Source: Otis tarda
Lineage: Eukaryota; Chordata; Aves; Otidiformes; Otididae
NCBI GenBank assembly: GCA_026413225.1
Contig: CM048572.1
Location: 8,556,001-8,620,000 of the forward strand
Direction: 5' to 3'
DNA length: 64,000 nt
Within the stretch, counting starts at the first letter, position 1. Every line of letters begins with the position of its first letter. Shown here one piece after another: positions 10,860 to 17,533 of the stretch. Made by a program: the position numbers and the translations under genes. The notes beneath the pieces were generated by a model, which saw only the letters and a list, made by a program, of their open reading frames with translations, searched no databases and was not told the DNA's origin.

Positions 10860-17533
<6,674 letters not shown>

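Follow-up and report, generated by a model that had tools for sequence, protein, structure and literature searches.

The last exon of ADNP in the Otis tarda assembly lacks one continuous reading frame, which is broken just before the homeodomain by a TGA at 12000–11998 on the minus strand. That this break exists in the assembled sequence is confirmed. We consider it very probable that the extra A behind it was inserted in error, as a single base, into the consensus of a normal, single-copy and functional ADNP gene; the bird's DNA would then carry three A at the site, and a full-length ADNP of about 1113 residues (732 + 381) would be made. This reading is favored because the gene shows no other damage and no lesion could be smaller, because ADNP is single copy and one-base breaks occur elsewhere in the assembly, and because bird assemblies have a documented history of false frameshifts. 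A real biological significance of the break is improbable.

The genome searched was the Otis tarda assembly (1.198 Gb, 116 contigs), and the window, by which we mean the whole stretch of 64,000 nucleotides that was analyzed, corresponds to C21:8556001–8620000, which puts the four-A run at C21:8568006–8568009. The features of the gene are collected in Table 1, where positions are those of the window and the homeodomain coordinates were computed by hand from ORF residues 41–82. The ADNP_N (PF19627) zinc-finger region is present in the upstream ORF with a score of 1294.6 bits, and coding exons 1 and 2 match this profile as well. The homeodomain and the HP1 motif, whose type is named for ADNP in the accessible part of PMC11208605, are both present, but solely in the frame that lies one base out. 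A PDB search with the C-terminal half of ADNP returned no match at E up to 0.1. Elsewhere in the window, at 28433–28891 on the minus strand, lies a K/R/E-rich ORF of 152 aa with an internal repeat (WHRDDEKRRENEQ / WHREDEKRENERG) and no Pfam match.

Table 1. Positions in the window of the ADNP exons, the frame break and the domains on either side of it
Feature	Position	Strand	Basis
ADNP coding exon 1, codons 1–36	17387..17494	minus	tblastn with presumed human N-terminus, 36/36 identical; ADNP_N profile positions 1–36
ADNP coding exon 2, codons 37–67	15837..15929	minus	tblastn with the same query; ADNP_N profile positions 31–67
Acceptor AG of ADNP last exon	14003–14002	minus	sequence
ADNP last exon, upstream frame, codons 68–734, ending KRRKTG-stop	11998..14001	minus	693-aa ORF; ADNP_N positions 67–730 of 753
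Four-A run at which the ADNP frame shifts by one base	12006..12009	minus	sequence; one-base skip restores ADNP_N match
Premature TGA stop in ADNP	11998..12000	minus	ORF translation
ADNP C-terminal part, shifted frame, 381 codons plus normal stop	10860..12005	minus	open frame
Homeodomain, profile positions 13–54 of 57, shifted frame only	11772..11897	minus	PF00046, E 2.3e-8
PGVLL, fits HP1-binding PxVxL motif, shifted frame only	11730..11744	minus	spotted by eye in translation

On the minus strand the upstream frame reads AGG (12012–12010), AAA (12009–12007), ACT, GGA and TGA (12000–11998), which gives KRRKTG-stop. The second frame stays open from 12017 down to 10860 (385 aa); its part after the break starts at 12005 and comprises 381 codons, ending SSQQA-stop. 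The AAAA at 12009–12006 is one base in excess; once one base was left out, the profile match grew from position 730 to 753, the end of the 753-position ADNP_N profile, and its score rose from 1294.6 to 1322.4 bits. Because the match runs on to 753 once a base is skipped, the frame break is not a product of chance. The lesion is single, with 664 last-exon codons before the break and 381 after it, all open. Since coding exons 1 and 2 were located, the lysine before the break could be counted from the exons found as codon 732 (68 + 664).

These results agree with the original prediction, which had described a one-base frameshift in the last exon before the homeodomain, with KRRKTG-stop at 11998 and ADNP homology resuming one base out; the profile and the ORFs both place it there. 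The restored ADNP_N match likewise bears out its proposal of four A at 12009–12006 where three would keep the frame, and the exon positions give the same codon, 732, that it had counted; this codon corresponds to human Lys731. The prediction had further proposed that a Ser codon is missing, relative to human, from the following Asp run. In two profile searches combined, 22 residues cover the 23 ADNP_N positions after 730, so this part fits the presumed human sequence, and the difference is in frame. The suggestion that the site is indel-prone did not hold, given that this Asp/Ser difference preserves the frame and that the exon contains 42 runs of at least four A (31 of exactly four, 11 longer), the one at the break among them. 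Truncation or assembly error had been left open as explanations, and the evidence favors error, short of proof.

Among the titles listed in our literature search, none reports this break in a bird ADNP; the chicken paper found there for ADNP deals, in its accessible part, with ADNP2 (PMC5902831). Bacterial and archaeal genomes were scanned for contaminating host DNA, which gave 61 pattern matches, none of them to a relative.

DNA from the break site was found at one place in the genome in a DNA search of the assembly. The genome search with ADNP_N, in which 7 of 7 candidates were scored, yielded six matches. Three are the ADNP exons on C21; the other three, on C2, are parts of a paralogue that we take to be ADNP2 and whose last exon has an open frame of 1001 codons. 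Neither the DNA search nor the ADNP_N profile search of the assembly found a second ADNP copy. A processed pseudogene or retrocopy was rejected on the grounds of a single ADNP locus, two introns between the coding exons, one lesion and no second copy.

We considered whether the frame change could be real and corrected at expression, either by +1 ribosomal frameshifting at GGA-UGA or by removal of a tiny intron, and judge this to be extremely improbable. By sequence reading, a U comes directly after the zero-frame UGA, and a ribosome slipping +1 at this point would make a protein of unchanged length; GGA-UGA-U also presumably resembles the shift site of antizyme. Against recoding, the 96-nt segment that begins at the stop had a weaker fold than the average of 200 shuffles (z +0.89), and 161 of these 200 folded at least as well. 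Thus, no stimulatory RNA structure of the kind that accompanies antizyme-like +1 frameshifting was seen in these 96 nt downstream of the stop, in a fold test of pseudoknot-free structures. As for a tiny intron, inspection by eye of the listed GT..AG pairs of 4–100 bases between 12080 and 11940 found none that looked usable; those able to act near the break would, by the same inspection, delete or misread conserved residues. The human ADNP frame, which we presume to be uninterrupted, also argues against both mechanisms. The original prediction had named a tiny intron or recoding as possible mechanisms, and these limited tests, of GT..AG pairs by eye and of RNA folding, lent them no support.

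It is very unlikely, in our view, that the four A are real and that the bird, perhaps with its whole lineage, either survives on an ADNP stopping short of the homeodomain or recovers the missing part through +1 frameshifting at GGA-UGA; ADNP2 could provide cover in such a case. A truncation fixed in the species or lineage, so that the homeodomain half is no longer made, is scarcely credible. The 381 downstream codons are open, the homeodomain is recognizable and there is no sign of decay, and the only point in favor of fixation beyond the sequence itself is the speculation that the paralogue with its open last exon might compensate. Fixation is also at odds with the description of ADNP as highly conserved and essential for neurodevelopment in the accessible part of PMC11208605.

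The quality of the assembly was judged on control genes. A search for protocadherin first exons gave 72 rows; outside the cluster on C14, eight of nine were open over 884–1336 aa, and the ninth stops at an apparent splice donor. Eleven short or odd protocadherin stretches were examined, ten of them in the C14 cluster. The frame changes at nearly abutting coordinates in eight of the 11, with no such change in the other three. Compared with their siblings, the eight breaks comprised four of one base, one of two bases, one of seven bases and two that were not pinned down; the presumed-intact sibling L034 is itself one base off from four broken copies, at one place. These frame-broken copies may be true pseudogenes or consensus errors. 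The C14 cluster as a whole is a large tandem one (C14:1081597–1716574) in which 16 exons share a domain score of 95.8 bits and several copies are frame-broken.

Among at least 150 rows for GPCR genes, 125 were full length without stops, and 112 of these 125 lay outside small olfactory-like contigs. This list, for which 147 of 1351 candidates were scored, ends near 139 bits save for a few second pieces and is biased to intact genes, so genes broken in mid-domain may be absent from it. Seventeen of the 25 odd GPCR rows were fetched: 15 were open by eye over the matched part to an apparent exon end, and two were frame-broken. The other eight consisted of one row with two stops, one beginning like L063/L064, and six that represent three genes in two pieces each, the pieces of each gene sharing one open frame. 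The first broken gene, L062 (C3:65316900–65318100), which we take to be trace-amine-receptor-like (TAAR), loses its frame at a run of eight C near the gene end; the second, L065 (C52:1071300–1072700), presumably olfactory-receptor-like, changes frame near a run of four T. We read the eight-C and four-T runs as the causes of these two breaks. A matching open frame lies ∼19 kb from L062. At C2:47422390–47423118 a GPCR frame carries two TAG stops, with neighboring GPCR frames open, and is perhaps a pseudogene.

For potassium channels, all 53 of 53 candidates were scored and gave 45 rows; the eight presumed Shaker-type rows were all open at a length of at least 506 aa, a verdict that covers those eight, and two of the remaining 37 rows carry a stop. 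The neighboring genes MOCS3 and KCNG1 (two exons) also have open frames, as does the last exon of the ADNP paralogue. The control names KCNA, KCNG1 and MOCS3 are our assumption, with Pfam domain support at most. The MOCS3-like frame is open at 62946–64000 on the plus strand, contains ThiF and rhodanese domains and runs beyond the window; on the strand opposite to it, at 63106–63306, lies an apparent first exon of DPM1; both names are presumptive. The LRRCT family was discarded as a control, being too short and giving two matches.

Small coding breaks therefore exist in this assembly; those found affect members of tandem families, and every single-copy frame judged is open. That the eight open protocadherin frames, 24.3 kb in total, contain no break still permits up to 0.39 expected breaks per exon of this size (95%), in a Poisson figure from which the GPCR frames were left out as circular, their rows having been picked as full length. 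The control genes thus only sketch the error rate and give no tight value for it.

The ADNP break has the appearance of a short single indel flanked by open frames in a gene that is otherwise normal, an appearance that a real mutation of recent origin would share. In a simple calculation whose inputs are assumptions and not measurements, the chance of an indel error in the exon was 0.0016 to 0.16 for Q60 to Q40, with half of all errors taken to be indels. At assumed carrier frequencies of 1e-5 to 1e-3, the prior odds of error versus carrier ranged from 1.6 to about 16,000, the lowest being for Q60 with a carrier frequency of 1e-3. Some observations speak against a consensus error. Coding errors look uncommon here, homopolymer errors do not typically strike runs as short as three or four A, the broken genes elsewhere belong to tandem families, in which true pseudogenes are to be expected, and the seven-base protocadherin insertion is unlike a run-length error.

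The scarcity of errors in single-copy control frames and the shortness of the A run also count toward a real allele, a true insertion of one base that the sequenced bird would carry on one chromosome, whether germline, de novo or somatic, and so does the fact that the extra base stands in the assembly. We nevertheless consider such an allele unlikely. It would encode a 734-residue ADNP without the homeodomain and the HP1 motif. Because the stop lies in the last exon, the truncated mRNA would probably escape decay. In this respect mutant last-exon ADNP mRNA has been detected in the blood of patients, where it evades nonsense-mediated decay, and the accessible part of the same report adds that mutant protein was absent from patient material and that decay was not wholly excluded (PMC11208605). 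Human truncations, moreover, cluster at the same stretch (PMC12839243). Set against these points, the assembly holds one copy only, in which a second allele is invisible, human carriers have a multisystem neurodevelopmental disorder (PMC12839243), and a reference animal would be an unlikely carrier.

Should the extra A be an error, annotation pipelines may predict a truncated ADNP or bridge the site with a spurious tiny intron, and comparative work could wrongly conclude that the key domain of a human disease gene has been lost. If the break is real, it would be a natural truncation at a human disease hotspot in another vertebrate, and four true A would provide a natural vertebrate test of the need for the homeodomain half of ADNP.

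The accessible part of a 2025 review of 105 individuals confirms that, as had been predicted, the human truncations p.Tyr719* and p.Arg730* fall in this stretch; they are the commonest variants, found in 30 and 9 individuals, respectively (PMC12839243). Single cases of p.Arg730Glnfs*3 and p.Leu732Metfs*20 are also listed there, and that part of the review does not mention Lys731. Inheritance was confirmed as de novo in 92 of the 105, the origin was unknown in 13, and none was inherited (PMC12839243). The break in the bird resembles these truncations in affecting the same gene and its last exon, no more than roughly a dozen codons away, with loss of the homeodomain and the HP1 motif (PMC12839243). 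Unlike the human changes, which are heterozygous variants in patients, it is one assembled sequence from another species.

False frameshifts in bird assemblies offer the other comparison. According to the accessible part of the VGP authors' report, short indels in the long-read consensus before polishing led to amino-acid frameshift errors, and in Anna's hummingbird an unpolished stretch retained frameshift indels in TLK1 (PMC8081667). In an earlier assembly of the zebra finch, false insertions in PCDH17 were annotated as introns of 1–2 bp, as the accessible text of PMC9516821 describes, and for an early avian long-read assembly the authors state, with data not shown, that haplotype merging also added indels (PMC5632298, in its accessible part). 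PCDH17 differs from the ADNP site in that the assembly was an earlier one and not long-read, and in that the exon was a GC-rich 5′ exon (PMC9516821). For both TLK1 and PCDH17 the same animal supplied additional evidence, in the form of linked reads or a better assembly, whereas the bird ADNP is known from the assembly alone (PMC8081667, PMC9516821). What hummingbird TLK1 and zebra finch PCDH17 have in common with the bird ADNP is a frame interrupted by a small indel within a coding exon, in a gene that is otherwise normal (PMC8081667, PMC9516821).
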